From assembly GCA_035528575.1 (NCBI GenBank), contig DATKYK010000024.1:1-64000 (forward strand): a DNA stretch of 64,000 bases, read 5' to 3'. The position numbers were made by a program, and so were the translations under genes. This stretch comes from Dehalococcoidia bacterium. Its GTDB lineage: Bacteria; Chloroflexota; Dehalococcoidia; E44-bin15. Position 1 is the stretch's first letter, and every line of letters starts with the position of its first letter. A model generated the notes under the pieces. The model made no database searches and was not told the origin of the DNA. It saw nothing but the letters and a program-made list of their open reading frames with translations. Shown in pieces: positions 41,897-61,340 of this stretch.

Positions 41897-44800
41897 ATGG
41901 CAAGGCCAAGGCGAATAGTAAAGACACTAGGTGTAGTCCCACTATTACTAGCTTTGATGCTGGTAGCACTTGTTGCCGCTCCGCTTCTGAGCATCGGCAT
42001 AACACAGGCTACGCAGACCACCATCGTCTTCCAGGATGATTTCGGCACTACTTACGCGAACACTGTTCCCGGTTGGACTGATAGCGATGGGAGTGGGCAT
42101 GACTGTGCCACTAGGCCCACTTATGGCACGGGCGATAAGTACCTCCGCCTGCGCAGCGGCGGGATGGCCACGAAGTCGGCCATCGACACAACAGGCCTGG
42201 TGAACATCCACCTGGAGTACGATTGGGGCCAGGATACCGACCGAGATGGCAGTGACGACGGCGATCTCGTTGTGCAGTGGAAGCTCTCTGCTGCCGGCAG
42301 CTGGACCACCGTCAATACACACGACCTTTCTAACGACACTACGACCTGGCCGGCAACGTATGTTGATGCAGCCCTTGGCATCACTGCGGAAGGCACCAGC
42401 ATTGATATCCGTTTCTGGGGAGACACCGATGAAGATCCTGACAGCGCACGGGTGGACAATGTCGTCGTCAGCGGCGACCCCGCGACAGCACCTTCACCAT
42501 CACCAAGCCGGTCGCCTTCGCCCCCGCCTACGCCTACGCCGACACCGACATCGTATGAGAGTATGGCAGCGGTAGTAGTAGTTATAGCTCGGATCACCCA
42601 GCCAATAGGCTCATCAGTAGAGCCCACATTTGTAGACGGTAACCCATTCTGCGTAGATACTTGCGGGGGCACTGAATATAAAATAGAAGAGCCAGTTACA
42701 TCGGGCTCCCACGTGCTTCCCGATAGCGCCGGTACGATTAACATAACAGTAACAGGAAACTATTTCGATTGGACATCGACAATAGGCATAGACTGTGTAA
42801 TCGTAAAGGGTGGTCCCAATGCTAATGTTTACTATTACGACCCTGAATCGTTTGGTGATACTGGACTCCATGCACCAATTAAACTCAGTAATGGAAAGCC
42901 TTTCGGGCTAAGCCATATAAGTTTCTGTTATAACATAGAGCCAACTCCTACTCCGACGCCAACGCCGACGCCTACGCCTACCCCGACACCTAACTGTACT
43001 CCTACCCCGACGCCTACGCCAACACCGAGGTGTACTCCTACTCCGACACCTAACTGTACTCCTACGCCGACCCCTACTCCGACACCAACGCCGACACCTA
43101 CCCCGACACCAACACCAACTCCTACGCCAACTCCTACACCTGACTGTGGTAATGTCTCGGTCGATAAGACCGCTCAGGAAGAGGGGTGCCGCACATACAA
43201 GGTTACACTGAATATCACGGGTGAGCCGTGCGCCAAGCCTGTTGATGTGATGCTGGTCTTCGACCGCTCAGGCTCCATGGATGATGGCGTGGGGCTAGAG
43301 CCGTTTAATTCTGCCAAAGCTGGGGCCAAGGCTTTCATTGACCAGCTGAATACCGATGATAAGGTCGGGCTGGTCTCCTATCATACCACTGCATATTTGA
43401 ACAACGGCTTAACCTTTACTCACAATGATGTTAAAACTTCCATCGATGGTCTATCCATCGGCGACTATACCAACATCGCTGCAGGAATCTATCTGGCAAC
43501 CCAGGAGATTATCGCCAATGGCCGTACGGATGCAGAGAAGGCTATAATCGTGCTTTCGGATGGCGTCGCCAATAGGGCCAGCGTTTCATGTACCGGCTGT
43601 GGCATATATCCATGTTATAGCACTTCGCCTACAATTTACGCGCCGAATAACAGGGGTACTTGCTGCACAAATGACGCAATTAACCAGGCCCTGGCTGCCA
43701 AGGTCCTAGGTTACAAAGTATTTAGTATCTTCCTCGAGAACGTCAATACTTCAGACTGCGGCAATACATCTCGCACATCACTACTTGGTTCTGAGACACT
43801 AAAAGCGGTATCTTCAGGAGCAGGCTTCTACTACGAAACCACCGATCCAAGCGACCTGGAGGAGATCTACGAAAAAATCGCCGGCCAGCTCAACACCGCA
43901 GCGACAGATGTAGTGGTCACGGACGACGTATCAGATGAGTTCGATGTCGATACTGGCAGCTTTAGCCCCAGCCAGGGCACCGTAAGCTTCAACTCCGGTA
44001 TTAACACCATTACCTGGAACGTTAGTGATGTTGGTAGTACATCAGTGACCCTGACCTACCAGGTCACCGCCAAGGCAGGTTATTCCGGCTCCCTTGATGT
44101 CAACGACCTGGCGACAATGAACTACACCGATGTGGATAGCAACCCCCAGTCGAAGGTCTTTCTTATACCCACTGTTAACGTGCCCTTTGATCTCCTAGCC
44201 TCCGCTTCCAGTAACTCACCAGTATGCGAAGGCGGTACCATACAGCTCAACGGTTCGGCCACCGGCGGCACACCTCCTTATTCCTCCTATAGCTGGACAC
44301 ATATCCCCGACTGGTCAAGCTTTATACAGAACCCCACCAGGTCCCCTGCTACCATAGCTATGTCCGGTACCTATACCCTGAACGTTACCGATTCCAACGG
44401 CTGCTGGGATACCGATACTACTAGTGTGGTGGTTAATCCCTGTCCTACTCCTACTCCTACTCCTACTCCTACCCCTACCCCTACCCCTACACCAACACCT
44501 ACGCCAACTCCTACTCCAACCCCGACGCCTACTCCTACGCCTACTCCTACTCCTACTCCAACCCCGACGCCTACTCCTACACCTACTCCTACACCGACAC
44601 CTACTCCTACTCCAACGCCAACTCCTACTCCCACACCTACGCCAACTCCCACTCCCACTCCTACTCCAACGCCGACGCCTACTCCTACCCCTACTCCTAC
44701 CCCGACCCCTACCCCTACACCAACACCTACGCCTACTCCTACCCCAACGCCTACTCCTACGCCTACTCCGACCCCCACTCCCACGCCTACACCAACGCCC

Positions 44801-47800
44801 ACGCCGACGCCAACGCCAACGCCAACACCTACTCCTACACCTACACCGACGCCGACTCCTACTCCTACGCCGACGCCAACACCTACTCCTACTCCTACCC
44901 CGACGCCGACTCCTACTCCTACGCCTACGCCAACACCTACACCTACACCTACTCCTACTCCTACACCGACGCCGACTCCTACTCCTACACCAACGCCGAC
45001 CCCTACGCCTACTCCTACCCCGACCCCGACTCCTACCTGTAATCCCGTAGCAGAATTAGTTATTAATGGCGGATTTGAAATACCGGATGTCCCCCCAGCT
45101 AGTTGGAATGTCTTTAACAGCTCTCAGGTTCCTGGCTGGAGTATTGAATGGGTTTCAACTACCCCCTCTTCCCCAGCCGATGCCCTTCTTGAGTTACACG
45201 ACCATGTTGCTATTGGCTGGAACCCCCAGGAAGGAGATCAGTATGCTGAACTGGATACTGACTGGTTTGGCCCGGGTGGTCCTGATCCAGCTTCAGATGC
45301 ACCAGCATCGGTAAAGATTTACCAGGATATCCCTACTATCCCAGGTTATACTTACTACATCAGCTTCTACTTCTCTCCACGTCCCGACACAGACATCTCG
45401 CAAAACAGCCTTAACTTTAGCTGGGCCGGGGAGGTGAAAGACACTATATCAGCCGCAGGTTCCAGTACTACAGTTTGGTCTTATCACTCCTATAGCTACG
45501 TAGCTGGAGGATCAACATGCCGTCTCCAGTTTTCTGATAACGGCATACCAAATGGTGTGGGAACATTCTTAGACAATGTAAGTGTTAGATGTGGACCTCC
45601 TCCGACACCTACGCCTACGCCGACTCCGACGCCGACGCCTACACCAACGCCGACTCCGACGCCGACGCCAACGCCGACGCCGACTCCTACTCCTACCCCA
45701 ACTCCTACTCCTACTCCTACTCCTACTCCTACTCCTACTCCGACTCCTACGCCGACTCCTACGCCTACACCTACTCCGACTCCTACGCCTACACCTACGC
45801 CTACTCCGACGCCTACACCAACGCCAACCCCGACGCCTACACCTACTCCTACTCCTACTCCTACACCGACGCCAACACCTACACCGACTCCTACGCCAAC
45901 ACCGACGCCGACACCAACGCCTACACCTACTCCGACTCCGACGCCTACACCGACTCCAACCCCTACGCCTACTCCTACCCCGACGCCGACTCCTACGCCG
46001 ACTCCTACGCCTACTCCTACGCCGACACCAACGCCTACACCTACTCCGACTCCGACGCCTACACCGACTCCAACCCCTACGCCTACACCCACGCCGACTC
46101 CTACTCCAACTCCAACGCCTACCCCTACGCCTACTCCTACCCCTACGCCTACTCCTACATGTGATCCTGAAGTTAACCTAGTCATAAATGGTGGATTTGA
46201 AACACCGGGTGTTACCCACGCAAGTAACTGGAATATCTTTAACAGCTCCGAGGTTCCTGGCTGGACTGTCGAATGGGTTTCAACTGACCCCTCTTCTTAT
46301 GAAGGAACTGACCGGCCAGACGATGCCTATCTTGAGTTACACGACCATGTTAGCGGCTGGAACCCCCAGGAAGGAGAGCAGTATGCCGAACTGGATGCTG
46401 ACTGGTATGGCCCGGATGATCCCCTTACAGGAGAACCAGCATCGGTAAAGATTTACCAGGATATCCCTACTATCCCGGGTGATACTTACTACATTAGCTT
46501 CTACTTCTCTCCCCGCCCCGACACAGACAGCCCGAACAACAGCCTTAACTTTAGCTGGTGCGGGGCGTTGAATGACACAATATCAGCCGCAGGTTCCAGT
46601 AATACAGTTTGGTCTTATCACTCCTATAGCTATGCAGGTACAGGATCAACATGCCGTCTCCAATTTTCTGATAACGGAACCTCAGATTCCTTAGGTACTT
46701 TCTTAGACAATGTAAGTGTTAGATGTGGACCTACTCCTACTCCTACGCCTACGCCAACGCCAACGCCGACTCCGACTCCTACTCCTACGCCAACGCCTAC
46801 CCCTACTCCTACCCCTACTCCAACGCCTACACCTACGCCGACTCCAACCCCTACGCCTACACCTACGCCTACTCCTACCCCAACACCAACTCCTACGCCT
46901 ACTCCTACCCCTACGCCAACGCCGACTCCTACTCCTACGCCAACGCCGACCCCAACACCTACGCCGACTCCTACTCCTACACCAACACCTACACCTACAC
47001 CTACTCCTACTCCTACCCCAACTCCGACACCTACGCCTACACCTACACCCACGCCTACACCTACACCCACGCCTACTCCTACACCGACTCCTACTCCTAC
47101 GCCTACGCCTACTCCTACCCCTACGCCAACGCCGACTCCTACTCCTACGCCTACACCCACGCCTACTCCTACGCCTACTCCTACTCCAACTCCAACTCCG
47201 ACACCTACACCTACTCCCACGCCTACTCCTACACCGACGCCGACTCCTACTCCCACGCCCACGCCGACGCCTACTCCGACGCCGACTCCTACTCCAACAC
47301 CTACACCTACTCCTACACCTACTCCCACGCCTACTCCGACACCGACGCCGACTCCTACTCCCACGCCCACGCCGACGCCGACTCCTACTCCAACCCCGAC
47401 GCCTACGCCTACTCCTACGCCGACTCCTACACCGACGCCTGTACTGTCATGCGTGCCATATGTACAGCTTGCAGTGCTCCTGGATGGATCCGGCAGCATT
47501 AGTGACGCTGAGTGGGAAATCGAGATAAACGGGCTACACGACGCTATCATCGATCCCGATTGCATGCCCCATTGCTGCGTGGAGCTAACGGTGATTCAAT
47601 TCGCTGACAACCTGCCCACTGGAGCTAGAACGGAAATCGGTCCCATTGTCATCACCAACATCAATCGTAATAACATCGCTGATGACGTCCTGAACATCAC
47701 CCATGAAAAAGGGATAACACCTATTGAAGCCGGTATAGACCTGGCTGTGGTGGAACTCACCAACTCTGAATGGTTTACCTATGCTTCAAAGCAGATAATC

Positions 47801-49246
47801 AACATAATTACCGACGTTGGACATATTGTGGTTGATTACGATGCCACGGAGATAGCACGCGATTACGCTATAGATGCGGGAATTGATGAGATAAGCGCCG
47901 AGGGCATCGGCGATATAATATACTATGACATAAACTGGCTGCAGGATCGCATTGTGTATCCTGGGTATCCCGATACCTCCGGTCATATAGCCCCACCATT
48001 TACACCGGGGTGGGTGTATGATGTTGAATTGGATGCTGGCAAGTTAAAGGAAGCCGTCTGCGAAAAGATTACATGTTTATACCCTACTCCTACTCCTACC
48101 CCGACTCCTACTCCTACTCCTACCCCAACGCCTACTCCTACCCCTACTCCTACACCTACACCGACTCCTACCCCTACACCAACCCCTACTCCTACCTCTA
48201 CGCCAACGCCGACGCCTACTCCCACACCTACACCAACTCCAACGCCTACACCTACGCCTACGCCTACATCTACTCCTACCCCAACTCCTACGCCTACACC
48301 GACCCCGACGCCTACTCCTACCCCAACTCCTACGCCTACCCCTACTCCTACCCCAACTCCTACGCCGACACCTGTAATGTTATGCGTACCAAATATACAG
48401 CTTGCAGTGCTCCTGGATGGATCGGGCACAATGGAAGATTTAGGTGAATGGGAGACACAGATATACGGACTGCGTAACGCTATCCTTAACCCCGATTGCA
48501 TGCCCAATTGCTGTGTGGAGCTAACGGTGATTCAATTCGCCGGTGATTTACCCAATGATGCCAGGCTGGAGGTTGGTCCCATCGTTATCACTGACGACAA
48601 CCGTTCTGCCATTGCCACTAAGGTCTTTAACATACCCAAGAGTGGCGGGACAACACCTATGGAATTTGCCATAGACCTGGCTGTAGTGGAACTCAACAAT
48701 TCTGAATGGTTCACCTATGCTTCAAAGCAGATAATCAACATAAGTAGTGACGTTGGATTGTATGTAGTTAATTTCGGTGCCATTGAGGAAGCGCGCGATA
48801 AAGCTGTAATTTTTGGTGGCATCGATGAGATCACCGCCCAGGGCATTGGCAATATCGAACTGATATATATAACTTGGTTGCAGGAAGAAATTGTATGGCC
48901 CCATCCCGCAAAACCGCCATTCACACCTGGGTGGGTATATATTGTTGGAACCAACGATGCCATGTTCACGGTAGCTATCTGCGAAAATGTTGATTGCATA
49001 TATGCACCGACGCAGAGACTGGAAGGCGATGTTCACCCGCTGGGTACCGGCAACGGTTTAATTGACTCGGCGGACTATCAATTAGTAGTCCAGCATATAG
49101 TGGGAACAATAACACTGACAGGCGATGATTTTTACGCCGCCGACGTTAACGACAGTGGCACAATAGACGCAGCGGACCTGCAGTTGATGGCACAATACCT
49201 TATCGGGACGATTACAGCATTCCCCGGGGGAGAATATATTCCATAA
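41897..49246 (+). CDS. Giant secreted modular protein: vWA, DUF642-like and dockerin modules with (Pro-Thr)n linkers
   Basis: 2449 residues with a signal peptide (basic start, then [16 protein letters not shown]). Order: jelly-roll-like module (~40-200); second module (~220-345); linker A (349-415); vWA module with intact [13 protein letters not shown] at ~456, then PKD-like repeat (~770-849); linker B (850-1047); DUF642-like module 1 (1048-1233); linker C (1234-1421); DUF642-like module 2 (1422-1611); linker D (1612-1848); vWA-like module 2 (LLDGSGSIS, 1849-2062); linker E (2063-2159); vWA-like module 3 (2160-2374, LLDGSGTME); and a two-repeat dockerin-like Ca-binding end ([19 protein letters not shown]). 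Modules are bracketed by Cys next to the linkers. No LPXTG or membrane anchor is seen. Likely an exported adhesin or matrix-assembly protein; the ligand is unknown. Confidence 0.9.
42941..43140 (+). repeat. Pro-Thr linker A
   Basis: About 67 codons of alternating Pro and Thr interrupted by N-C, R-C and D-C, which places single Cys residues within the linker. It joins the second N-terminal module to the first vWA module. Confidence 0.9.
44444..45037 (+). repeat. Pro-Thr linker B
   Basis: 198 codons of uninterrupted (Pro-Thr). Third codon positions vary freely among all four bases, so the DNA is not a simple hexamer repeat although the peptide is perfectly periodic. Confidence 0.95.
45596..46159 (+). 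repeat. Pro-Thr linker C
   Basis: 188 codons of Pro-Thr (starting P-P-P-T) between the two DUF642-like modules. Third positions are randomised as in linker B. Confidence 0.95.
46730..47440 (+). repeat. Pro-Thr linker D
   Basis: 237 codons, the longest linker, between the second DUF642-like module and the second vWA-like module. Local hexamer and 12-mer blocks are reused within it, suggesting growth by slippage or unequal crossover. Confidence 0.95.
48083..48373 (+). repeat. Pro-Thr linker E
   Basis: 97 codons of Pro-Thr with two P-T-S-T interruptions. It separates the last two vWA-like modules. Confidence 0.95.
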
Positions 49247-50885: not shown

Positions 50886-50914
50886 TTGACAAACGATTAA
50901 CTTTTGATTAGTAT
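50886..50914 (+). promoter_or_regulatory. Promoter candidate for the selenoprotein/thioredoxin-reductase genes
   Basis: TTGACA at 50886-50891, 17-base spacer, TAGTAT at 50909-50914, about 95 bases upstream of the glutaredoxin-like start. Confidence 0.6.
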
Positions 50915-51009
50915 GCTATTTCACTTCCCAATATGTTCCCAGGGAGATAAAAGTTTCGTACGGGGGCCACCCCCGAATCTTAAATTTGATCCAGAATCAG
51001 GAGGAGAAA

Positions 51010-51249
51010 ATGAGTGCCAAAGAAGTGAAGCTCTATTCCACCCCTACTTGACCCTGGTGCAAGAGGACCAGTATGTTCCTCGAGCAGCATAATATCGCCT
51101 ATCAAGAAGTCGATGTCGCTACCGATAGCGCCGCCCGTGAGGAGATGGTGCGTAAGACAGGTCAGATGGCGGTACCTGTCATCGAAATCGATGGCGATTT
51201 TACCGTTGGCTTCGACGAAGGCAGGCTGAAAGAGAAATTAGGCCTTTAA
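51010..51249 (+). CDS. Glutaredoxin-like selenoprotein with in-frame UGA (Sec14)
   Basis: 79 residues if the UGA at 51049-51051 is read as selenocysteine. Upstream codons give M-S-A-K-E-V-K-L-Y-S-T-P-T, the UGA follows, then P-W-C-K-R-T-S-M-F-L. The UGA thus occupies the first, nucleophilic position of the family's C-P-W-C motif, giving U-P-W-C. The rest is a normal glutaredoxin/NrdH-like protein: YQEVDVATDSAAREEM, TGQMAVPVIEIDGD with the cis-Pro, and VGFDEGRLKEKL. The frame is open on both sides, with ribosome binding site GAGGAG before the ATG. It lies 16 bases upstream of a thioredoxin-reductase-like gene, the usual partner. A TGC-to-TGA nonsense mutation is the alternative, but the exact position and intact remainder favour Sec. 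Confidence 0.82.
51052..51081 (+). promoter_or_regulatory. Possible bacterial SECIS hairpin
   Basis: Right after the UGA, two mutually exclusive stems can form: CTGGT/ACCAG (51054-51058 with 51067-51071, 8-base loop starting with G) and GAGGA/TCCTC (51063-51067 with 51077-51081, 9-base loop). In the second, the loop starts 16 bases after the UGA, within the range known for bacterial SECIS elements, and an extra C-G pair with a bulged U can be drawn. Which one SelB would use cannot be settled by eye. Confidence 0.45.
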
Positions 51250-51265
51250 CTTGCCGGTGGAGCTT

Positions 51266-52174
51266 ATGCGTGAACTGATCATTATCGGCGGTGGTCCCGC
51301 GGGGATGACCGCTGCGGTCTATGCTGCCAGGAAGCGGCTAGATACCCTGCTCATCAGTAAAGACATTGGAGGGCAAGCTCTTTGGTCGGCCAGTGTGGAG
51401 AACTATATGGGATATCAGTATATCGAAGGATTTGAGCTGATGGCCAAATTCGAGGAGCAGATGAAGCAGTTTCCGCTGGAGCAGAAGATCGGTGAAGAGG
51501 TAGTTGCTTTATCCCGACGGAATGCGGGATTTGAGATCAGGATAGCCAATGGTGAAAGCTATCAGGCAAAGGCGGTGATCGTCGCTACCGGGAAACGTCC
51601 CCGCCAGCTCAATGTACCTGGCGAGGAGCGGCTAAAGAGTCGGGGTGTTACCTATTGCGCGATTTGCGATGGCCCGCTCTTTGCCGGGCAGAAGGTGGCG
51701 GTTATCGGCGGGGGCAATTCCGCCCTGGAGGCAGCGGACGATATGGTCAAGATCGCCGAGTATGTCTATCTGGTGTCGCTGACACCGTTCACCGGCGACC
51801 GGATACTTATTAATAAAGTTAAAGAGGCACCCAATATGACCGTGTTTTTGGAGCACAAGGTGGTGGCGATCGACGGGGAAAGCCGTGTGGAAGCTGTCGC
51901 CATCAGCGATTTAAAGAGCGGCGAAGAGAAGAGGCTTGAGGTTGGGGGTGTCTTTGTCGAGATCGGGCTGATCCCCAGTTCGGACTTGTCTAAAGGCATC
52001 GTCAGGCTAAATGAGCTCGGTGAGATCGAGATAAATTGTGCCACCGATACAGGGGTACCCGGGCTCTTTGCCGCCGGGGATGTAACCAATGCCCCGGAGA
52101 AACAGATCCTGGTTGCCGCCGCTGAGGGGGCCAAGGCCGCTCTCCAAGCTCATAAATATCTCAAGAGACTATAA
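51266..52174 (+). CDS. Thioredoxin-reductase-like flavoprotein
   Basis: 302 residues from the ATG at 51266; a TTG at 51251 would add five. FAD motif IIGGGPAGMTAAVYAAR (about 6-22), active-site C-A-I-C in TYCAICDGPLF (about 130-140), and VIGGGNSALEAADD of the pyridine-nucleotide domain. The usual H-R-R NADPH-phosphate motif is missing; the segment reads YLVSLTPFTGDRI, so NADPH may not be the donor. The C-terminal GLFAAGDVTNAPEKQI is typical. It is expected to reduce the adjacent UPWC glutaredoxin-like protein. Confidence 0.9.
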   Translation: MRELIIIGGGPAGMTAAVYAARKRLDTLLISKDIGGQALWSASVENYMGYQYIEGFELMAKFEEQMKQFPLEQKIGEEVVALSRRNAGFEIRIANGESYQAKAVIVATGKRPRQLNVPGEERLKSRGVTYCAICDGPLFAGQKVAVIGGGNSALEAADDMVKIAEYVYLVSLTPFTGDRILINKVKEAPNMTVFLEHKVVAIDGESRVEAVAISDLKSGEEKRLEVGGVFVEIGLIPSSDLSKGIVRLNELGEIEINCATDTGVPGLFAAGDVTNAPEKQILVAAAEGAKAALQAHKYLKRL

Positions 52175-52185
52175 AGGGGTGACAA

Positions 52186-52671
52186 ATGGGCATATTTTTT
52201 ACTGGCAGTGAACTGGTGAACATCGCCATTGGGATCGAGCGGAGCGGAGCCGCTTTTTACGACACCCTGGCAAAGTCTGCCAGGAATGAAGCATCTAGAG
52301 TTATTTATGAGTATCTGGCTCTTGAGGAGAAAAAGCATATTGAAATCTTCCAAAATATGCTGGGCTCACTTGCAGACTATGCACCACCAGAGACCTACAC
52401 TGAAGAGTATGACCGGTATCTAAAAGCGCTGATCGACTCCGCTGTCTTCCGCGACGATCAGACTGCCCGCGAGATGGCACAAAAGTCAGCGAGTGAAGCC
52501 AAAGCTATCCAGATCGCTATAAGCGCAGAAAAGGACTCTATACTGTTCTATTCGAACTTGCGAGAACTGGTTCGACGGTCAGACCGCGAGGCAGTCGATA
52601 AGATAATAGAGGAGGAGAGGTCTCACCTGAGGCAGCTTTCAGACCTGATGAAAGGCTTCAGCAAGCGGTGA
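52186..52671 (+). CDS. Ferritin-like diiron protein (rubrerythrin-related)
   Basis: 161 residues, four-helix ferritin-like protein without a rubredoxin domain. E-x-x-H type motifs are seen in YLALEEKKHIEIF (about 45-57) and IEEERSHLRQL (about 143-153), and E residues occur in helix 1 (IGIERSGAAFYD) and helix 3 (AISAEKDSILFY). These give a diiron site as in the DUF2202/YciF-rubrerythrin group. Probable role: peroxide reduction or iron handling. It starts 11 bases after the reductase gene, in the same operon. Confidence 0.87.
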   Translation: MGIFFTGSELVNIAIGIERSGAAFYDTLAKSARNEASRVIYEYLALEEKKHIEIFQNMLGSLADYAPPETYTEEYDRYLKALIDSAVFRDDQTAREMAQKSASEAKAIQIAISAEKDSILFYSNLRELVRRSDREAVDKIIEEERSHLRQLSDLMKGFSKR

Positions 52672-52684
52672 CAAGGAGGCAAGA

Positions 52685-53251
52685 TTGAGAGTCCTGGGGA
52701 TTATGGGGAGCTCAAGGATAAAGGGCAATACTGATTTACTGCTGGATGAGGCTTTGAAGGGTACCCAAAGTCAGGGTGCAGAGGTGGAGAAGCTCATCGT
52801 AGATAAACTCAACATAGCCCCGTGCCGCGAGTACTACGGTTGCCTGAGGGATGGCAATTGCGTCATAAGAGACGACATGGATGGCATATACCCCCAGCTC
52901 CTCGAGGCCGATGTGGTAATAGTAGCCTCGCCGATGTTTTTCTATGGGCTGACCAGTCAGGTTAAGGCGCTAATCGACCGCTCTCAGGCGCTGTGGGCCC
53001 GAAAATATATCCTCAAGCAAAACCTGCCCTGTGAGGGGAGAAAAGGCGCCTTTATCGCTGTGGGGGCCACCAAGGGACAGAAACTGTTTGACGGGTCCAT
53101 ATTGACAGTGAAATATTTCTTCCAAGCCATCGGCGTCGAGTACGCTGAGGAACTTCTTATCCGGGGCGTGGATACAAAAGGTGAGATTAGGGAGCACCCA
53201 ACCGCACTAAAGGACGCCTTTGATCTGGGCAGCAGGATCGCTCAAAGTTAG
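52685..53251 (+). CDS. Flavodoxin-fold NAD(P)H/iron-sulfur flavoprotein
   Basis: 188 residues, TTG start with AAGGAGG eight bases upstream. The N-terminal VLGIMGSSRIKGNTDLLLDEAL is the FMN-binding loop of the NADPH-dependent FMN reductase/Isf family. The Cys cluster PCREYYGCLRDGNC (about 46-59) is a variant of the iron-sulfur flavoprotein motif with three Cys in the compact region, so a full [4Fe-4S] site is uncertain. SPMFFYGLTSQVKALIDRS is the second FMN contact. Isf-type proteins reduce O2 or H2O2 or shuttle electrons in anaerobes, which fits the island. Confidence 0.85.
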   Translation: MRVLGIMGSSRIKGNTDLLLDEALKGTQSQGAEVEKLIVDKLNIAPCREYYGCLRDGNCVIRDDMDGIYPQLLEADVVIVASPMFFYGLTSQVKALIDRSQALWARKYILKQNLPCEGRKGAFIAVGATKGQKLFDGSILTVKYFFQAIGVEYAEELLIRGVDTKGEIREHPTALKDAFDLGSRIAQS

Positions 53252-53279
53252 CGATTCTCACAATGACTGAGGGTTAGAT

Positions 53280-53489
53280 ATGAGGTCTGCATGTCCCGGT
53301 CAAGATTTCAGAAACCTACGGGTTGAGCTCTACAAGTGCCCGAACTGTGGTGCAGAGGAGGAGCTCTTCTCCAACGAGACTAAGGTGAAGTGCCACGAGT
53401 GCGGTGAATGGATTTGCATGGACTGGTGCGCTTCAGCTCGCCAGTACCTGGGAGAGGAGAGATGGAAGCAATTGAAGGGCTGCGAGTAG
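53280..53489 (+). CDS. Small Zn-ribbon protein
   Basis: 69 residues. Two metal-binding knuckles, YKCPNCGAE (about 18-26) and KCHECGEWIC (about 36-45), with extra Cys at MDWCASAR and the end (GCE). The ending RQYLGEERWKQLKG resembles small proteins often annotated vaguely in anaerobe genomes; no activity is known to me. It lies between a flavoprotein and another small protein gene on the same strand, probably co-transcribed. GAGGGTT precedes the ATG. Confidence 0.75.
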   Translation: MRSACPGQDFRNLRVELYKCPNCGAEEELFSNETKVKCHECGEWICMDWCASARQYLGEERWKQLKGCE

Positions 53490-53517
53490 CGGCAACTTTC
53501 AGATAGGAGGTGACCTT

Positions 53518-53691
53518 TTGGACGAAAAACTCGAAATGGAAATTCAAGCTTCTCTGGTTGACGGTAAGCTTCCCTGCGCCATAGCGTTTAAGATAGCTAA
53601 GAAGCTGAAAGTTAGCCCCAGACAGGTTGGAGACACAGCGAACAGACTAAATATAAAGATAATGAGCTGCCAGCTCGGTTGTTTCCCGTAA
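53518..53691 (+). CDS. Conserved-looking small helical protein with C-terminal CxxxC
   Basis: 57 residues, TTG start behind a near-perfect AGGAGGTGACC site. The sequence is helical (EKLEMEIQASLVDGKLPC, AFKIAKKLKVSPRQVGDTAN looks like a small helix-turn-helix) and ends C-Q-L-G-C-F-P. The HTH-like segment plus the C-terminal Cys pair would fit a redox- or metal-sensing DNA-binding protein, which is inference. It sits within the redox island with the same polarity. Confidence 0.6.
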   Translation: MDEKLEMEIQASLVDGKLPCAIAFKIAKKLKVSPRQVGDTANRLNIKIMSCQLGCFP

Positions 53692-53802
53692 TTTTATCTG
53701 CGATTACATGCTTGTCGCGGGCTAGCTGTTCGTGAATGTCTGAAATGGAAACAAAGGTGTTGAGGAAAATCGTCAGAATCGACGAATCGGGACTAACGGC
53801 TG

Positions 53803-53925
53803 ATTCTCATCAGATACTTTGCGATCCGCAGTAAAGACCATGAATATCTCGGCTGCCTGAAGGTTACCCAGGACATAACCGACCTGAAGAAGATTGAAGG
53901 TGAGAAGAGGCTGCTTGAGCCTTGA
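53803..53925 (+). pseudogene. 3' remnant of a DUF438/PAS-type protein gene
   Basis: The frame reads ILIRYFAIRSKDHEYLGCL, VTQDITDLKKIEGEKRLL and stops. This is the characteristic closing strand-helix of PAS domains in DUF438/hemerythrin-type proteins (R-Y-F-A-I-R-D...LG-x-L-E-V-T-Q-D-I-T). There is no start and the upstream 110 bases do not extend the similarity. A larger sensor gene has been deleted down to its last ~40 codons. Confidence 0.65.
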
Positions 53926-53948
53926 TAGAGAATATCGGAGGTGTGAAA

Positions 53949-54074
53949 ATGGGAGTCAAGAATGTGGGCGAAAAATATCGCTGCAATGTCTGCGGCAACG
54001 AGGTGACGGTGACCAAGGTCGGTGGCGGCACCCTAGTCTGCTGCGATCAGGAGATGGAGCTAATACAAGAATAG
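53949..54074 (+). CDS. Desulforedoxin-type rubredoxin-like protein (copy 1)
   Basis: 41 residues; the ATG follows GGAGGTGTGAAA. It is a Dx domain: YRCNVCGNEVTVTKVGGGTL and CCDQEME, i.e. a C-x-x-C pair and the diagnostic adjacent C-C pair that bind a single Fe(SCys)4. Desulforedoxin is found alone or as the N-terminal domain of desulfoferrodoxin (superoxide reductase). Here only the Dx domain is present; the neelaredoxin domain is absent. Likely electron carrier in the peroxide/superoxide chain of the island. Confidence 0.85.
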   Translation: MGVKNVGEKYRCNVCGNEVTVTKVGGGTLVCCDQEMELIQE

Positions 54075-54264
54075 AACAGCGCTCTCAGTTAGCTTCCTGT
54101 TTGCATTGTGTCGATGCAACCTCCAGAGCTTCCATGGAGCAATTGCTAGGATCGCTACTGAGGAGAGGGTAAGTAACCACTTCAGGCTCAGACTAACTTA
54201 TAGAACATTCACAGAACCAAAAGAATCAGACCCCTAACCTATCAGACGAAGGAGGTGAAAGGAA

Positions 54265-54408
54265 ATGCCAAGCGTGAGAGCTGTCCTAACCAATATGTCA
54301 GTTCCAATGCCTATTCACCGAAAACTGTATCTTGTTCTCCGTAACAATTCTATCAAAATATGGAAGAGGCAGAGCTGTTGTGGCCACTATGGTGAACCAG
54401 GCTGCTGA
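54265..54408 (+). CDS. Small protein with CCGHYGEPGC tail
   Basis: 47 residues, ATG behind GAAGGAGGTGA (a near-perfect site). The N-terminal ~35 residues form a basic amphipathic segment (MPIHRKLYLVLRNNSIKIWKR); the end is C-C-G-H-Y-G-E-P-G-C, three Cys and one His that could bind a metal. I have the impression that such tails recur in small proteins of anaerobes, but no function is known to me. The translation signal is the best support. Confidence 0.65.
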   Translation: MPSVRAVLTNMSVPMPIHRKLYLVLRNNSIKIWKRQSCCGHYGEPGC

Positions 54409-54450
54409 GAAGTTGTGAAATAGCCTCCTGGTCAAGGAGGAAAGGGGTAG

Positions 54451-54564
54451 AAGGTAGATAATAAGTACCGCTGCACTGTCTGCGGCAACGAGATAATAGT
54501 GACCAGGGTCGGCAGCGGAACTATAGTCTGCTGCGATGAGGAGAGGGCACCAATCGGAAAATAA
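54451..54564 (+). pseudogene. Desulforedoxin-type copy 2, start codon lost
   Basis: Reads KYRCTVCGNEIIVTRVGSGT and CCDEE, so all four Fe-ligand Cys are kept and it is a diverged duplicate of 53949-54074. Upstream in frame there is a TAG at 54448-54450 and no ATG, GTG or TTG between it and the first conserved residues. A GTA at 54454 sits where a GTG start would be expected, six bases after AAAGGGG. Either a one-base start loss or non-canonical initiation. Confidence 0.6.
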
Positions 54565-54584
54565 TTTCGATGAAGGAGGTAGAA

Positions 54585-55163
54585 ATGGGTTACACTGCTA
54601 AGGACTATACAAGTTTAATCGGAATAGAGGGATTCAGCGAGCCGCTGCTCAACAATCACTTCACACTGTATCAGGGCTATGTCACCAATACCAACAAGCT
54701 ATATGATTCACTTACTGCCATGCTCAAGGAAGGCAAAACGGCCACCCCGGAATACGCCGAGCTTAAGCGCCGTTTCGGCTTCGAGTTCAACGGTATGCGC
54801 CTCCACGAATACTACTTCGAAAACCTCGGCGGCAAGGGGACACTAAACAAATCTGGCAAGCTGGCCCAGCTGTTGCCCGGTGCATACGGCAGCTACGAGG
54901 ACTGGGAGAAGGACTTTCGCGCCACCGCCACCATGCGGGGAATCGGTTGGGCTATCCTGTACCAGGATAACGTAACCGGCTGGCTGATAAACCAGTGGAT
55001 AAATGAGCATGAGACCGGCCACCCTGCAGGTTGTACCCCCATTCTGGTGCTGGATGTTTTCGAGCATGCCTTCATGATCGACTATGGGCTGAAGCGAGCC
55101 GACTATATCGATGCCTTCTTCAAGAACATCAACTGGGATGCGGTCGAGGCTCGCCTCAAGTAG
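54585..55163 (+). CDS. Fe/Mn superoxide dismutase
   Basis: 192 residues from the ATG at 54585, chosen for AAGGAGGT at 54573-54580; an ATG at 54570 precedes the site. It is an iron/manganese-type SOD: first His ligands in LLNNHFTLYQGY and FNGMRLHEYYFENLG, then LDVFEHAFMIDYG with the Asp and His ligands (family consensus D-x-W-E-H-A; here F replaces W). GWAILYQDNVTGWLINQW is the central beta region. It converts superoxide to O2 and H2O2, which the island's catalase and rubrerythrins can remove. The substitution near the metal may tune Fe/Mn preference; not determinable. Confidence 0.9.
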   Translation: MGYTAKDYTSLIGIEGFSEPLLNNHFTLYQGYVTNTNKLYDSLTAMLKEGKTATPEYAELKRRFGFEFNGMRLHEYYFENLGGKGTLNKSGKLAQLLPGAYGSYEDWEKDFRATATMRGIGWAILYQDNVTGWLINQWINEHETGHPAGCTPILVLDVFEHAFMIDYGLKRADYIDAFFKNINWDAVEARLK

Positions 55164-55256
55164 AGGCAACCGTCTGGGCCCAGCTTTGAGATAAAGGTCG
55201 CATACAGGGATCAGCCCAGTGGTTAAAATGTGGTTGAGATGACCAGAGGAGGGGTT

Positions 55257-56444
55257 ATGAAGAGAGCATACCTTGACCATGTAGCGACAACCCCAGTCCT
55301 TCCCCAGGTGCTGAAGGCTATGCTTCCCTACCTCAAGGATGCCTATGGCAATCCTCAATCCATCCATGAGTGGGGAGACCAAGCCAGGGAAGCGCTGGAT
55401 GATGCCCGCAGCAAGGTTGCCGCCCTCATTGGCGCCCAGCCTGAGGAGATCATCTTCACCGGCTCGGGCACCGAGGCCAACAACTTCGCCATCAAGGGGT
55501 TGGCCCTCGCCCGGCAGTCCCAGGGGAAGCACGTTGTCATCTCTGCCATCGAACATTTTTCAGTTCTTCATTCAGCTAAGACGCTGGAGAAGTTGGGCTT
55601 TGAGGTCACTCAGGTACCAGTGGACAAGTACGGGCTGGTCGATCCTGAAAAGGTCGGTAAGAGCATAAGGGAGGATACGGTTCTGGTATCCATCATGCAC
55701 GCCAACGGCGAGGTGGGCACCATCCAGCCCATCGCCGAGATAGCTAAGGTGGTGAAGAAAACGGGGGCCCTGTTCCACACCGATGCAGTAGCCACCGCAG
55801 GCTCAATACCTGTTGATGTCAGAGAGCTCGGTGTTGATGCGCTAAGCCTGACCCCCAACCAGTTCTATGGCCCCAAGGGTGTTGGCGCCCTGTGGTTTAA
55901 AAAAGGTGTACGCATTATGCCCTTCCTCGATGGTGGGGTGCAGGAGGGAGGAAGGAGGGCGGGGACCGAGAACGTTCCCTCAATCGTAGGTTTGGGAAAA
56001 GCAGCAGAGCTGGCTCGAGAGGAAATGGCGTCCCGGATGGCCCACCTCTCTGCCCTGCGCGATAGGTTGATCGAGGGACTGCTGTCACGGATCGAGAATG
56101 CCATCCTCACCGGACATCCCACCCAGCGCCTCCCCGGCAATGCCAGCTTCTGCATCGAGTTTATTGAAGGAGAGTCAATGCTCATGCTGTTAAGTCACCA
56201 GGGAATAGCGGCATCCAGCGGTTCGGCTTGCACGTCCAGGGCGCTCAAGGCCTCTCACGTGCTCACCGCTATGGGGGTTCCTGCCGAGATCGCACAGGGG
56301 TCGCTACTATTCAGCCTTGGCTTGGAGAATACCGAGGAGGACATTGACTATGTATTGGAAGCGCTGCCGCCTATTGTTGATCGGCTCCGGCAGATGTCAC
56401 CGCTATATTCCAAATTTATAAAAGGTCAGCGAGGAGGAAGTTGA
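55257..56444 (+). CDS. NifS/IscS-type cysteine desulfurase homologue lacking the PLP Lys
   Basis: 395 residues from the ATG at 55257 (GAGGAGGGG upstream). It is a class V aminotransferase fold with [11 protein letters not shown]100 ([12 protein letters not shown]-stacking), [15 protein letters not shown] and the active Cys C325 in [17 protein letters not shown]. The motif that normally reads S-A-H-K-x-Y-G-P-K-G, with the Schiff-base Lys, here reads [10 protein letters not shown]: the Lys is Q202. Archaeoglobus IscS has a comparable Lys loss (to Asp) and is poorly active as isolated. IscU starts two bases downstream, so it is kept as part of an Fe-S or sulfur-relay unit. Confidence 0.88.
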
Positions 56445-56445
56445 G

Positions 56446-56859
56446 ATGCCTGTTTACAGCGACAAGGTAATGGAACACTTCATGAACCCCCGCAATGTAG
56501 GGGAGATCGAGGATGCCGATGGCATCGGTGAAGAGGGAAACCCCGTCTGCGGGGATATGATGACATTCTACATCAAGGTGGACGATAACCATCTCAGCGA
56601 TGTCAAGTTCAAGACCTTCGGCTGCGGCGCTGCCATCGCCGTTTCCAGCATCGTGAGCGAGATGGCTATGGGCAAGACCCTGGAGGAGGCAAGGAAGATT
56701 ACTCCGGCCCTTGTGGCCCAGGAGCTTGAGGGGCTGCCCAAGAATAAGTATCACTGCTCCAACCTCGGCGCTCAAGCGCTGAATAAGGCCATCGATGACT
56801 ACCTGAAGAAGCAGGGCAAAGCTATAAAAAACGGAAGGAGGAGGAAGGATGACAAGTAG
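56446..56859 (+). CDS. iscU: IscU/NifU-type Fe-S cluster scaffold
   Basis: 137 residues with all three scaffold Cys: GNPVCGD (about C35), FGCGAAIAVSS (about C61) and HCSNLGAQ (about C105). The start MPVYSDKVMEHFMNPRNVGEI is the family signature. The C-terminal tail is basic (KNGRRRKDDK), and the last 11 bases overlap the next gene. It directly follows the Lys-less NifS homologue, so sulfur may come from that protein or, if it is inactive, from sulfide or another donor. Confidence 0.93.
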   Translation: MPVYSDKVMEHFMNPRNVGEIEDADGIGEEGNPVCGDMMTFYIKVDDNHLSDVKFKTFGCGAAIAVSSIVSEMAMGKTLEEARKITPALVAQELEGLPKNKYHCSNLGAQALNKAIDDYLKKQGKAIKNGRRRKDDK

Positions 56860-57040
56860 TGAAAAGCCAAAGGAGAATGAGAGGAGGTGCTTTTGCCCCT
56901 ACTGTGATGAGGAGCTGGCTATGTCCCCTGCGCCTTATTGTCAGCCGTGCCACATTGAGCTACGGTATTGCCTGAAATGTAATATAGTAGTGGAGAAAAC
57001 GGCCAAGGTCTGTCCACAATGTGGGCGAACTTTGGAGTAA
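56849..57040 (+). CDS. Double zinc-ribbon small protein
   Basis: 63 residues with three metal-binding pairs: CFCPYC (about 14-19), YCQPCHIE (about 30-37) and YCLKCN with VCPQCGRTLE at the end. These give about two zinc ribbons. AAGGAGGAGGAAGG precedes the ATG within the iscU gene, so the two are translationally coupled. Role unknown; such proteins often act as adapters for Fe-S or sulfur-transfer partners. Confidence 0.75.
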   Translation: MTSSEKPKENERRCFCPYCDEELAMSPAPYCQPCHIELRYCLKCNIVVEKTAKVCPQCGRTLE

Positions 57041-57532
57041 GTGGCGAGCATGGCTGAGAAAGAGAGTGTGACTCTGGTGGTATTCAGCGGAGAGCTAGAC
57101 AAGGCCCTGGCCGCCTTCAATATCGCCATCGGGGCCGCCTCAATGGGGATGGAGGTGAGCATGTTCTTCACCTTCTGGGGGCTAAATATCATCAAGAGAA
57201 ATGAGGGCAGCATAAAAAGCCGGGGGATAATGAGGAAGATGCTCAATAGAATGAACCGGGGCGGCGCCAAGAGACTGCCCTTATCAAAATTTCAGATGCT
57301 CGGCTTGGGCAAATGGATGATTGGGCGGTTAATGCGTGATATAAAGTCTCCTCCCCTTGAGGAGATGATGGCCATGGCTAAGGGTATGGGGGTAAAATTT
57401 ATCGCCTGCACCACCTCTATGGGGATGATGGGGATAGGAAAAGAGGCCTTCATCCCCGACGTGGACAGCTTCGCCGGGGTAGCCACCTACCTAGCTGAGG
57501 CTAAAGAGGGAAATGTCAATCTCTTTATTTAA
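57041..57532 (+). CDS. DsrE/DsrF-like (DsrE2) sulfur-relay protein
   Basis: 163 residues from the GTG directly after the preceding stop; an ATG at 57050 is an alternative. The Rossmann-like segment VTLVVFSGELDKALAAFNIA and AASMGMEVSMFFTFWGLNII match the DsrE/DsrF-like, peroxiredoxin-like (DsrE2) family, which carries sulfane sulfur. KFIACTTSMGMMGI contains a conserved Cys. The C-terminal FAGVATYLAEAK is typical. It lies immediately before a TusA gene, the classical partner, making a persulfide relay with the NifS homologue and IscU. Confidence 0.88.
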   Translation: MASMAEKESVTLVVFSGELDKALAAFNIAIGAASMGMEVSMFFTFWGLNIIKRNEGSIKSRGIMRKMLNRMNRGGAKRLPLSKFQMLGLGKWMIGRLMRDIKSPPLEEMMAMAKGMGVKFIACTTSMGMMGIGKEAFIPDVDSFAGVATYLAEAKEGNVNLFI

Positions 57533-57544
57533 GGAGGCATGGCT

Positions 57545-57775
57545 ATGAAGGCAGATGCCACTTTAGACTGCATCGGATTATACTGTCCCATGCCCATCGC
57601 TCACACCGCCAATAAGCTAAAAGAGCTGGAAGTTGGGCAGGTGCTGGAGATATTGGCCGACGACGAGGGCATTAAAGAAGACATGCCTGCCTGGTGCCGT
57701 ACTACGGGAAATGAGCTGTTGGGGATTGAGGATGAATCGGGGCAATATAAAGTTTATGTTAAGAAATCAAAGTAG
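57545..57775 (+). CDS. TusA-family sulfur carrier
   Basis: 76 residues from the ATG at 57545, chosen because AAGGAGG at 57531-57537 gives seven-base spacing; the ATG at 57539 is too close. The family motif LDCIGLYCPMPIAHTANKL shows the C-P-x-P with the persulfide-carrying Cys. EVGQVLEILADDEGIKEDMPAWCRTTGNELL is the rest of the fold. It is expected to receive sulfur from a desulfurase or DsrE protein and pass it on. Confidence 0.92.
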   Translation: MKADATLDCIGLYCPMPIAHTANKLKELEVGQVLEILADDEGIKEDMPAWCRTTGNELLGIEDESGQYKVYVKKSK

Positions 57776-57788
57776 AAAGGCGGAACCA

Positions 57789-58361
57789 ATGGAACTTAAA
57801 GGCAGCAGGACAGAGCACAATCTGCTGGCGTCATTTGCCGGCGAATCGCAGGCGAGGAATCGTTATACATACTTTGCATCGGTTGCAAAAGAGGCCGGGT
57901 ATGAACAGATCGCCGCTATCTTCCTCGAGACAGCAGACAACGAAAAAGAGCATGCTAAGCGATACTTCCAATTCCTTCAGGGGGGAGACGCGGAAATCAC
58001 TGCAACTTACCCAGCGGGTGTCATAGGTGATACCGCAGCAAATCTGGAAGCGGCAGCAGCCGGGGAAAACCTGGAATGGACCAAACTATACAAAGAAGCT
58101 GGGGAAGTGGCTCGCCAGGAAGGTTTTCAAGAGATAGCAAATGTATTTTGGGAAATCGCTGAAGTAGAAGAACAGCATGAGCTTCGCTATAGAAAGCTTC
58201 TCAAGAATGTGAAAGAGAACAAGGTATTTAAGAAAGATGTAGTTGTCAAATGGAAGTGTCGCAATTGCGGCTATGTCCACGAAGGGATGGAAGCCCCCAA
58301 GCAGTGCCCCGCCTGTGACCATCCTCAGAGCTATTACGAGCTTATGGCCGAGAATTATTGA
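57789..58361 (+). CDS. rbr: Rubrerythrin
   Basis: 190 residues from the ATG at 57789. The ferritin-like diiron domain spans about residues 5-140: LLASFAGESQARNRYTYFAS, ETADNEKEHAKRYFQF, AGENLEWTKLYKEAGEVARQEGF, AEVEEQHELRYRKLL, with the E-x-x-H pairs intact. A C-terminal rubredoxin-like domain follows: WKCRNCGYVHEGMEAPKQCP with ACDHPQSYY. It reduces hydrogen peroxide to water using electrons from rubredoxin, which is encoded 1.1 kb downstream. It starts 13 bases after the TusA gene. Confidence 0.94.
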   Translation: MELKGSRTEHNLLASFAGESQARNRYTYFASVAKEAGYEQIAAIFLETADNEKEHAKRYFQFLQGGDAEITATYPAGVIGDTAANLEAAAAGENLEWTKLYKEAGEVARQEGFQEIANVFWEIAEVEEQHELRYRKLLKNVKENKVFKKDVVVKWKCRNCGYVHEGMEAPKQCPACDHPQSYYELMAENY

Positions 58362-58432
58362 TAGAGCCTGGCCAAGCTTAATTTTCAGCCTACATTTCCT
58401 AAAATTTAAAAATCTGATACGAGGTGAGAGGA

Positions 58433-58876
58433 ATGACAGTAACTCTCAGGGACGAGATCGTAACATACATGGAGAAATGCCGTGCATGTACCATTGCCAC
58501 CGCCAACACTGATGGTCAACCTAGCGCCTCCACCGTTTTCTTTAAAAACAGCGGGACAGACATATATTTCAACACAGCAAGAGATGCTGAAAAGGTGAAG
58601 AACATTCTGGTAAATCCCCGCGTAGCAATAGCCATAGAGGAACGCGTACCCATTCCTAACGAGGATAAGGGTATCAAAGGCATTCAGTACATTGGAAAGG
58701 CTGAGATATTAGCTGACAAGAATATTACTGAAGTGCCAAAGGCTGTGATGGCAAGACACAATGCCTTCAATAGTGTGAAAGCTGGAAACTCAGTAATCGT
58801 TAAAGTGACTCCACTGAAGATATACCTAATTGACTACTCCCGGGGATTTCGGCATCGGGAACTTCTCGAGTTTTAA
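58433..58876 (+). CDS. Pyridoxamine 5'-phosphate oxidase-like FMN protein
   Basis: 147 residues from the ATG at 58433 (GAGAGGA just upstream); a GTG at 58424 would add three. It is a split-beta-barrel flavin-binding protein: CTIATANTDGQPSASTVFF, IYFNTARDAEKVKNILVNPR and IQYIGKAEILAD are the family landmarks. It lacks the specific residues of true PdxH. Such proteins bind FMN, F420 or haem and reduce varied substrates. It sits between rubrerythrin and the flavin reductase, so an electron-transfer or O2-related function is likely but unproven. Confidence 0.85.
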   Translation: MTVTLRDEIVTYMEKCRACTIATANTDGQPSASTVFFKNSGTDIYFNTARDAEKVKNILVNPRVAIAIEERVPIPNEDKGIKGIQYIGKAEILADKNITEVPKAVMARHNAFNSVKAGNSVIVKVTPLKIYLIDYSRGFRHRELLEF

Positions 58877-58937
58877 TCGAGACTAGAAGGCCCGACGATG
58901 CAGGGTATGGTAAGGAATAAAAGTTTTAAGGAGCGAA

Positions 58938-59444
58938 ATGGACACCAAGGTCTTACACCAGATAAGCTATGGAATGTACATCGTTGGCTCCAGAAAGGGA
59001 GATAGAATAAACGGTCAGACCTGTAACACCGTGATCCAGGTCTCCTCGGAGCCGCCGATTATATCGGCGTGCATCAATAAAGGAAACCTCACCCATGAGT
59101 TCATCGAGGGTAGCGGGGTCTTCACCGCTTCAATTTTGTCTCAGGACACACCGCTGAGCCTGATCGGACGCTTTGGCTTCAAATCAGGCAGAGAGGTGGA
59201 CAAGTTTGAGGGCATAGATTATAAGCTGGGCGAGACCAAAGCTCCCATCGTCCTCGATAACACCCTGGCCTACCTCGAAGCCAAGGTGATTAGCGAGGTG
59301 GATGTGGGAACGCACACTATTTTTATCGGTGAGCTTGTGGGCGCTGAAGCTATCCAGGAAGGTGAGCCGATGACGTATGCCTATTATCATCAGGTGAAGC
59401 GAGGCACTACACCTAAAACAGCTCCCTCCTATCACAAAGATTGA
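58938..59444 (+). CDS. Flavin reductase-domain protein (Hrb-like)
   Basis: 168 residues, flavin reductase/FMN-binding split-barrel domain: [60 protein letters not shown], and a C-terminal [19 protein letters not shown]. In high-molecular-weight rubredoxin (Hrb) this domain is fused to a rubredoxin; here the rubredoxin is a separate gene 19 bases downstream. The TPKTAPSY tail is the usual inter-domain linker start, which supports a split Hrb. It likely passes NAD(P)H-derived electrons to rubredoxin for rubrerythrin or flavodiiron reduction. Confidence 0.9.
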
Positions 59445-59463
59445 GGCAAGAAAGGAGATAGGT

Positions 59464-59628
59464 ATGGCAGCAGTGAAATATGAGTGCACCGTTTGTGGCT
59501 ACGTATATGATCCCGAACAAGGCGATGCCGAAGGCGGCATCGAGCCGGGGACGCCTTTCGAGGAGCTGCCCGATGATTGGCAGTGTCCAGTCTGCGGGGC
59601 CAGTAAGGATGAGTTTCAAAAGCTATAG
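59464..59628 (+). CDS. Rubredoxin
   Basis: 54 residues, ATG behind AAAGGAGATAGGT. Canonical rubredoxin: [45 protein letters not shown]. The two C-x-x-C-G loops bind one iron. It follows the flavin reductase gene, so the two form a split high-molecular-weight rubredoxin. Electron donor to the rubrerythrins and perhaps to a flavodiiron protein. Confidence 0.95.
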
Positions 59629-59663
59629 GAGTGATTGAATTCCAGGAAGGGAGGTGAACAAAT

Positions 59664-59819
59664 ATGGCGGAGCAGTTATGTCCAGTATGCGGCTGTCACA
59701 TCGCCGGTTCTGGCTATGAGAGTGAGGGCGTGGTCTATTGCTGCGAGCCCTGCGCCAGCAGCAGCCCGTGCGAGTGCGATTGCTGCCATGTTGCCGAAGA
59801 ACACGAAGAAAAGAAATAG
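59664..59819 (+). CDS. Bacterial metallothionein-like protein
   Basis: 51 residues with 11 Cys: QLCPVCGCHIAG, GVVYCCEPCASSSP, CECDCCHVAEEH. The order of a C-x-x-C-G-C loop, a Y-C-C-E-x-C-A turn and a Cys-rich end resembles the prokaryotic metallothionein (SmtA/BmtA) family, with His able to help bind Zn or Cd. AAGGGAGGTGAAC precedes the ATG. Likely metal buffering or thiolate redox scavenging during oxidative stress. Confidence 0.8.
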   Translation: MAEQLCPVCGCHIAGSGYESEGVVYCCEPCASSSPCECDCCHVAEEHEEKK

Positions 59820-60023
59820 ACACGTCATCCTTTATGTGGAATGTTGTCTAGTCGAGATTGCAGCATCAAGTCTAGACCAGCAGAAAGGTTAAGGTTACTG
59901 GATATCGCCAAGGGATAACGATATTCTGGACTCACTACACTATATAGAGATAACACGGTGAGCCTGTATCAAACATTGGCGCTTCAACCGGAAATGTAGA
60001 CCTAAAAGGAGGTGGATAGCGCC

Positions 60024-60632
60024 TTGTGGAAATGTACCAATTGTCACCATGTAGAACTTACCACCGATAAACCTGAGCGTTGCCCACTCTGCGGTGTGGA
60101 GGCAGAAAAGCTGGTCCCCCATGAGATCCCGGGGATAAAAGGGATAAAGACCCTTAAAAACCTCAAGGACGGCTTCGTTGCCGAGTCACAAGCCCACCAG
60201 AGGAACCTCGCCTTCGCCATGAAGGCCGAGGAGGACGGCTACCGCCAAGTGGCAAGACTGTTCCGTGCTATCGCTGAGGCCGAGGGAGTTCACGCCTTCC
60301 ATCACCTCCGCCTCCTCGGTGGTGTGTCCGATACTCAGGAGAACCTGGAAAGCGCATTCGAAAGGGAGAACCTCGCCAGCAGCACCTATCCTCAGTTCAT
60401 CGTGGAGGCTAATAAGGAAGATAATGCACACGTGGCAAGGATCTTCAGTTACTCTCGCGACGTTGAGCGGGGACACGCCAAGCTCTACGAAAAGGCGCTG
60501 GAGCACATGCTGGCCGATGTGGATACCGAATACTATGTATGCGGTGTCTGCGGCTATGTATCAGATGGTGTCCTCCCTGACCGATGCCCCATTTGCGGTG
60601 CCCCCGCAGAGCGGTTCAGGAAGGTTGTCTAA
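60024..60632 (+). CDS. Rubrerythrin with rubredoxin-like domains at both ends
   Basis: 202 residues from the TTG at 60024: AAAGGAGGTGG (60005-60014) is the site, so the GTG at 60012 lies within it and is unlikely to be the start. N-terminal rubredoxin-like knuckles WKCTNCHHV and RCPLCGVE (residues ~2-28), ferritin-like diiron domain (~40-165, FVAESQAHQRNLAFAM, AIAEAEGVHAFHH, SYSRDVERGHAKLYEKAL), and C-terminal YVCGVCGYVSDG with RCPICGAP. The two-ended type resembles nigerythrin/'reverse' rubrerythrins. Probable peroxidase with extra electron-entry domain. Confidence 0.88.
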   Translation: MWKCTNCHHVELTTDKPERCPLCGVEAEKLVPHEIPGIKGIKTLKNLKDGFVAESQAHQRNLAFAMKAEEDGYRQVARLFRAIAEAEGVHAFHHLRLLGGVSDTQENLESAFERENLASSTYPQFIVEANKEDNAHVARIFSYSRDVERGHAKLYEKALEHMLADVDTEYYVCGVCGYVSDGVLPDRCPICGAPAERFRKVV

Positions 60633-60759
60633 CTAGCCAGGTTCTGAGTGAAGGAGTCAGGGATATTGTAGTGGCAGGTATCACCCAGCAAAAGGGCATA
60701 GGTTTCGAACTCACCTGTTAGGGAGCGAAGCTACAAAAACAATAAGTGGAGGTAATTAT

Positions 60760-61278: not shown

Positions 61279-61340
61279 ATGATTTCACTGAAAGCTATAT
61301 AGAGCATACAAACCATCATTCGCGAAATAAGGAGGATGTC

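Follow-up and report, generated by a model that had tools for sequence, protein, structure and literature searches.

The stretch of DNA considered here (the window, 64,000 nucleotides in full) carries on its plus strand, at 51010..51249, a gene for a small glutaredoxin of the YruB/Cp9 type that almost certainly contains selenocysteine (Sec). Translation, family profiles, and an AlphaFold model describe it as a protein of 79 amino acids with the active site U-P-W-C. When TGA is translated as U, its 79 residues read MSAKEVKLYSTPTUPWC...KEKLGL, followed by a TAA stop at 51247-51249. The sole stop within the frame is the TGA at 51049..51051 (plus strand), codon 14, which translation and the alignment of homologues place at the nucleophilic Cys position. 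The preliminary description of this DNA had proposed such a 79-codon frame with TGA on the first Cys of the active site, missed by ordinary gene calling. The translation agrees, and the standard list of open reading frames holds none of at least 60 amino acids in this frame.

With Cys placed at residue 14, the redoxin matches the Pfam Glutaredoxin profile with an E value of 4e-21 and passes the NCBIfam model GlrX_YruB (TIGR02196) at 91.2 bits, with a cut-off of 88.55. The AlphaFold model, for which a 27-row alignment was the input, has a glutaredoxin fold with a pLDDT of 93.5, and structure comparison matches it to cGrx1 and cGrx2 of C. oremlandii, to BC3987, and to other glutaredoxins. The ribosome binding site and promoter that had been claimed are also found upstream on the plus strand: a Shine-Dalgarno sequence before the ATG, GGAGGAG (AGGAGG), read from the sequence at 51000..51006, and a sigma-70-like promoter, TTGACA-17-TAGTAT, at 50886..50914, which is proposed from a 10/12 consensus match only.

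The next gene starts with an ATG (51266) that lies 16 bp past the redoxin stop and encodes an AhpF-like/thioredoxin-reductase-like flavoprotein of 302 amino acids (51266..52174, plus strand), a probable electron donor on the basis of profiles, structures, and conserved adjacency. It is followed on the same strand by a gene for a rubrerythrin-like protein (52186..52671), identified by its Pfam profile, and in several relatives the reductase is likewise followed by a rubrerythrin-like gene or by superoxide dismutase. Beyond these in the window are an FMN reductase, Fe-superoxide dismutase, NifS, NifU, DsrE, TusA, two more rubrerythrins, a flavin reductase, ferritin, and catalase. This oxygen-defence gene cluster spans 51010-62801 and has three rubrerythrin-type proteins in total. 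Outside the cluster, 41897-49246 encodes a protein of 2449 amino acids in which very long stretches of Pro-Thr repeats separate other domains; by eye, its tail looks like a dockerin-type repeat.

The in-frame UGA among homologues and the selenocysteine machinery

The closest relative of the redoxin, from another genus of the same order, is 82% identical and has TGA at the identical codon; other orthologues of the order have TGT or TGC there. An alignment of homologues, suggested earlier as a check, gives only Cys or UGA at this position: over 75 distinct homologous loci the codon is TGA in 33 and TGT/TGC in 42, with no TAA, no TAG, and no other residue. Because the same codon is TGA in the relative from another genus and in all 33 distinct UGA loci, the TGA is not there by chance. 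Bacterial selenoprotein genes typically have an in-frame UGA where homologues carry a redox-active Cys, as is the case here. Furthermore, dN/dS over codons 15-79 is 0.12 in comparison with the closest UGA relative, a value indicating that purifying selection acts on the sequence past the UGA. The coding sequence has no disablement besides the TGA, and the description of intact coding on both sides holds.

Among 393 sampled genomes of the class, redoxin homologues occur in 101, of which 49 show a match containing TGA; within this count, the TGA was confirmed to lie at the active-site codon for those loci that were read. The selA gene scores above the cut-off in 43 of the 49 UGA genomes versus 22 of the 52 Cys-only genomes (p 3e-6, in a test where related genomes are not independent). 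Three of the six UGA genomes without selA have selB above the cut-off; the remaining three have neither, and two of these are less than 80% complete. In the window's order, selA is present in 4/4 genomes with the UGA form (G000, G009, G004, and G005) and absent from 4/4 Cys-only genomes (G007, G010, G011, and G012). UGA forms were also observed in Pelotomaculum and Syntrophomonadaceae MAGs (L045:3001-3213 and L050:2813-3046), and the Sec redoxin is therefore not limited to Chloroflexota. A second UGA glutaredoxin occurs in two genomes from a single related genus (L026:1501-1659 and L027:1501-1653), and both copies seem to go out of frame at a shared position, following GQMA.

Bacterial selenoproteins also need dedicated machinery, and a search of the source genome (G000) for selA, selB, selC, and selD, proposed in the preliminary description, found all of them. 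The profile matches are 567 bits for selA, 373 bits for selB, and 377 bits for selD, and the tRNA-Sec (selC) scores 70 bits and has the anticodon TCA; all lie on one contig within about 14 kb. The selD gene (G000:C5:42487-43413) has one internal TGA of its own, at residue 34 of the stretch translated, and a clear hairpin with the loop GUC stands directly after this UGA. Together they are a positive control for Sec coding in the source organism. The ordinary genes that neighbour the redoxin terminate in TGA, which implies that the genetic code is unchanged. At the level of sequence, these comparisons establish both the Sec coding of the redoxin and the alternation of Sec and Cys within its family, and the redoxin protein itself would carry Sec.

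A SECIS-like hairpin after the UGA

Folding predicts a SECIS-like hairpin after the redoxin UGA at 51055..51089 of the plus strand, with a core stem formed by 51063-51067 and 51077-51081 and a probability of 0.89-1.00 for the core pairs. The apical loop has G at 51071 and U at 51072 (nucleotides 23 and 24 from the U of UGA), and G then U is typical of the loop in UGA genes. Bacterial selenoprotein genes are expected to have a hairpin directly behind the UGA whose small apical loop contains G. Such a hairpin is found both in the window and in the family, as judged by folding. An Rfam search of the window gave 0 matches. A scan of the window for further TGA-interrupted UxxC/CxxU genes gave nothing convincing, with a criterion of one TGA per open frame that missed even the redoxin gene.

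Counting stems with a fixed loop was a weak approach because the position of the hairpin varies by 1-3 nt between genes, and it was replaced by randomisation and by pair counts on aligned subsets. Compared with synonymous randomisation, the window hairpin has a z of -2.8 over nucleotides 4-45. Over nucleotides 13-42 after the UGA, the mean z is -2.6 for UGA genes (n=33) versus -0.2 for Cys genes (n=42; p 8.5e-12). In one UGA subset (alignment A4), compensatory changes are seen at 4 of 8 hairpin pairs, with 99% of cells paired and 0/500 shuffles as good; covariation in a Ser-type subset (alignment A5) is only modest and weaker than in A4. The SECIS that had been supposed to lie 3' of the UGA is represented, then, by a predicted SECIS-like hairpin, which is a property of UGA genes as a group and not of Cys genes.

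The hairpin in the window lies 3 nt upstream of its position in most relatives and differs from theirs in sequence; this shift within the window's family may reflect drift or an independent acquisition of Sec. The core hairpin of the closest UGA relative is identical in every letter, but a second fold competes with it there, and its ensemble probability is about 31%. Suppression of synonymous-site changes over the hairpin in the two closest UGA genes was not significant (1/8 vs 15/52 codons, p 0.67). A Cys orthologue with TGT (L019:1501-1737, or G012:C3:58037-58273), from a genome without selA, has kept a GAGGA/UCCUC stem with A residues in the loop, and its sequence is possibly that of a relic SECIS left after a change from Sec to Cys.

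Related redoxins and the adjoining reductase

The redoxin is of a type previously described in other bacteria. Sec glutaredoxins with a UxxC site are a listed and experimentally supported selenoprotein family (PMC13188914, PMC1088965, PMC1794560), and the PDB sequence that best matches the redoxin, Grx1 of Clostridium (Alkaliphilus) oremlandii, is a native selenoprotein (PMC7642778), which bears out the earlier remark that such proteins exist. The resemblance to Grx1 (PDB 7c10 and 7c12) extends to the glutaredoxin fold (TM-score 0.90), to about 47% identity, and to Sec as the first residue of a U/C-P-X-C site. Grx1, however, is described as being reduced by glutathione and is a proposed reductant of the selenoprotein MsrA (PMC7642778), whereas the window redoxin comes from Dehalococcoidia and shares an operon with an AhpF-like reductase. 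The Uxx-star glutaredoxin-like selenoproteins (NF041212 and NF041114) are also glutaredoxin-like, with Sec as the N-terminal member of the site, but the window redoxin scores under their curated cut-offs (59.2 vs 66 and 34.6 vs 72, respectively).

Another useful comparison is with the Cp9 redoxin of C. pasteurianum, a member of the YruB family. According to PMC3720550, the gene for Cp9 lies between those of a peroxiredoxin and the NADH-dependent reductase Cp34, and the redoxin ferries electrons between the two. Both systems have a small glutaredoxin-like redoxin of 75-80 amino acids beside a thioredoxin-reductase-like flavoprotein; in the window, as is characteristic of the YruB/Cp9 type, this gene is adjacent (16 bp downstream) and the adjacency is kept in relatives. 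Cp9 has Cys and adjoins an AhpC peroxiredoxin, whereas the window redoxin has Sec and no adjacent AhpC. A search beside the redoxin and reductase genes found no AhpC-type peroxiredoxin, the neighbour that defines the Cp34/Cp9/Cp20 peroxiredoxin-reducing system, and elsewhere the source genome has only one Tpx-like peroxidase and one TlpA-like AhpC-TSA protein. An operon of redoxin and reductase is unusual for a Sec glutaredoxin and known for the Cys form.

The flavoprotein scores 300.4 with the Thioredoxin-disulfide reductase model (TIGR01292, cut-off 343.45) and 311.3 with the AhpF model (TIGR03140, cut-off 502.9), and it is called 'AhpF-like/TrxR-like' because it falls below both equivalog cut-offs. 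Its best solved-structure match is the C-terminal reductase part of AhpF, which it resembles; unlike in AhpF, the redoxin here is not fused to the N terminus of the reductase but is a free-standing protein with Sec and a single Trx fold. An HRRxxxR element marks NADPH-specific thioredoxin reductases. The second nucleotide-binding region of the flavoprotein aligns with that of AhpF and is without this element, which suggests that NADH is the cofactor. Of the thioredoxin-reductase-like gene announced 16 bases on, the spacing and the type of reductase stand, but its scores are closest to AhpF, and the pair resembles Cp34/Cp9 more than a classical NADPH thioredoxin reductase.

A reductase lies within 450 nt downstream on the same strand at 17 of the 33 UGA loci and about 20 of the 42 Cys loci; about half of the UGA loci are without one, mostly the distant ones. 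Gene order across these loci shows the pairing of redoxin and reductase genes to be conserved, and to this extent the partnership claimed in the preliminary description is upheld, while a functional coupling is something that the gene order would predict. A search of a plasmid collection found no relative of the pair, and only a short ahpF match.

Proposed decoding and electron transfer, and evolution

The observations as a whole are very probably best explained by a Sec-read redoxin with a SECIS hairpin, through which an AhpF-like reductase relays electrons to thiol-dependent targets. In the proposed mechanism, the hairpin just 3' of the UGA would bind and recruit SelB with Sec-tRNA(UCA), and the UGA would be decoded as Sec instead of causing termination. 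NAD(P)H would then supply electrons to the FAD and CxxC of the flavoprotein; the Sec/Cys pair of the redoxin would accept these and finally hand them to thiol-dependent targets, for example a peroxidase, in the oxygen-defence setting. For this last step the Tpx-like peroxidase is a candidate acceptor only. The donor role of the reductase is suggested by gene order and by analogy with the Cp34/Cp9 pair of Clostridium pasteurianum, and the Sec redoxin probably works with the neighbouring reductase in anaerobic Chloroflexota.

Two other readings of the UGA itself are both very improbable. The gene could be a pseudogene, in which the TGA is a nonsense mutation in a Cys glutaredoxin and the loss is compensated by a Cys paralogue on the same contig. 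Such a paralogue is present (G000:C24:129708), and yet the same TGA recurs in 33 loci from many genera, and purifying selection persists after it in a sequence free of other disablement; this reading was rejected on the conservation of the TGA and the dN/dS of 0.12 past it. The worn-looking copy is instead the paralogue (G000:C24:129708-129944, L025), which has the active site CPCC and is flanked by a reductase matched as two pieces on its upstream side and by a reductase start that looks broken on its downstream side; from its sequence it looks like a decaying copy. Alternatively, a suppressor tRNA or a changed code could allow the UGA to be read as Cys or Trp, and a UGA at a Cys position is compatible with insertion of Cys. 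The tRNA-Sec with anticodon TCA, the full Sec machinery of the genome, and the hairpins after the UGA all argue against this, as does the use of TGA as an ordinary stop next door, on which the idea of a changed code was rejected.

A different question is whether a real Sec redoxin takes its electrons mainly from a low-molecular-weight thiol or another reductase, with the operon reflecting shared oxidative-stress regulation only. This is unlikely, though less so than either reading of the UGA above. It agrees with the description of the structurally known protein closest to the redoxin, C. oremlandii Grx1, as glutathione-reduced (PMC7642778), and with the fact that the neighbouring reductase is missing beside many distant UGA homologues. 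In close relatives, however, the pair stays adjacent whether the redoxin has Sec or Cys, and the related Cp34/Cp9 pair works as reductase and redoxin, as reported in PMC3720550, citing Reynolds et al. 2002.

The relay from the AhpF-like reductase to the Sec redoxin can also be considered in an evolutionary context. When mapped by parsimony onto a 35-row tree of the neighbouring reductases, the Sec/Cys state changes 11 times, with at least four of these changes forced by well-supported branches, and Sec and Cys forms are interleaved within the window's own family. A tentative extension of the model, somewhat more doubtful than not, is that in many Sec-using Dehalococcoidia a dedicated relay from NAD(P)H through an AhpF-like flavoprotein to a Sec redoxin serves as an oxidative-stress hub, with repeated switching between Sec and Cys accompanied by gain and loss of the SECIS, and with a separate change from Cys to Sec suggested in the window's family. 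In a search of open-access papers, we found no description of a Sec redoxin in Dehalococcoidia and none that joins selenoproteins with YruB. Standard gene calling drops or truncates this gene, so that it is easy to misinterpret the antioxidant electron path in these anaerobes, which are widespread and uncultured. Close pairs of Sec and Cys orthologues beside the same reductase provide a natural test of the benefit of Sec in a thiol relay.
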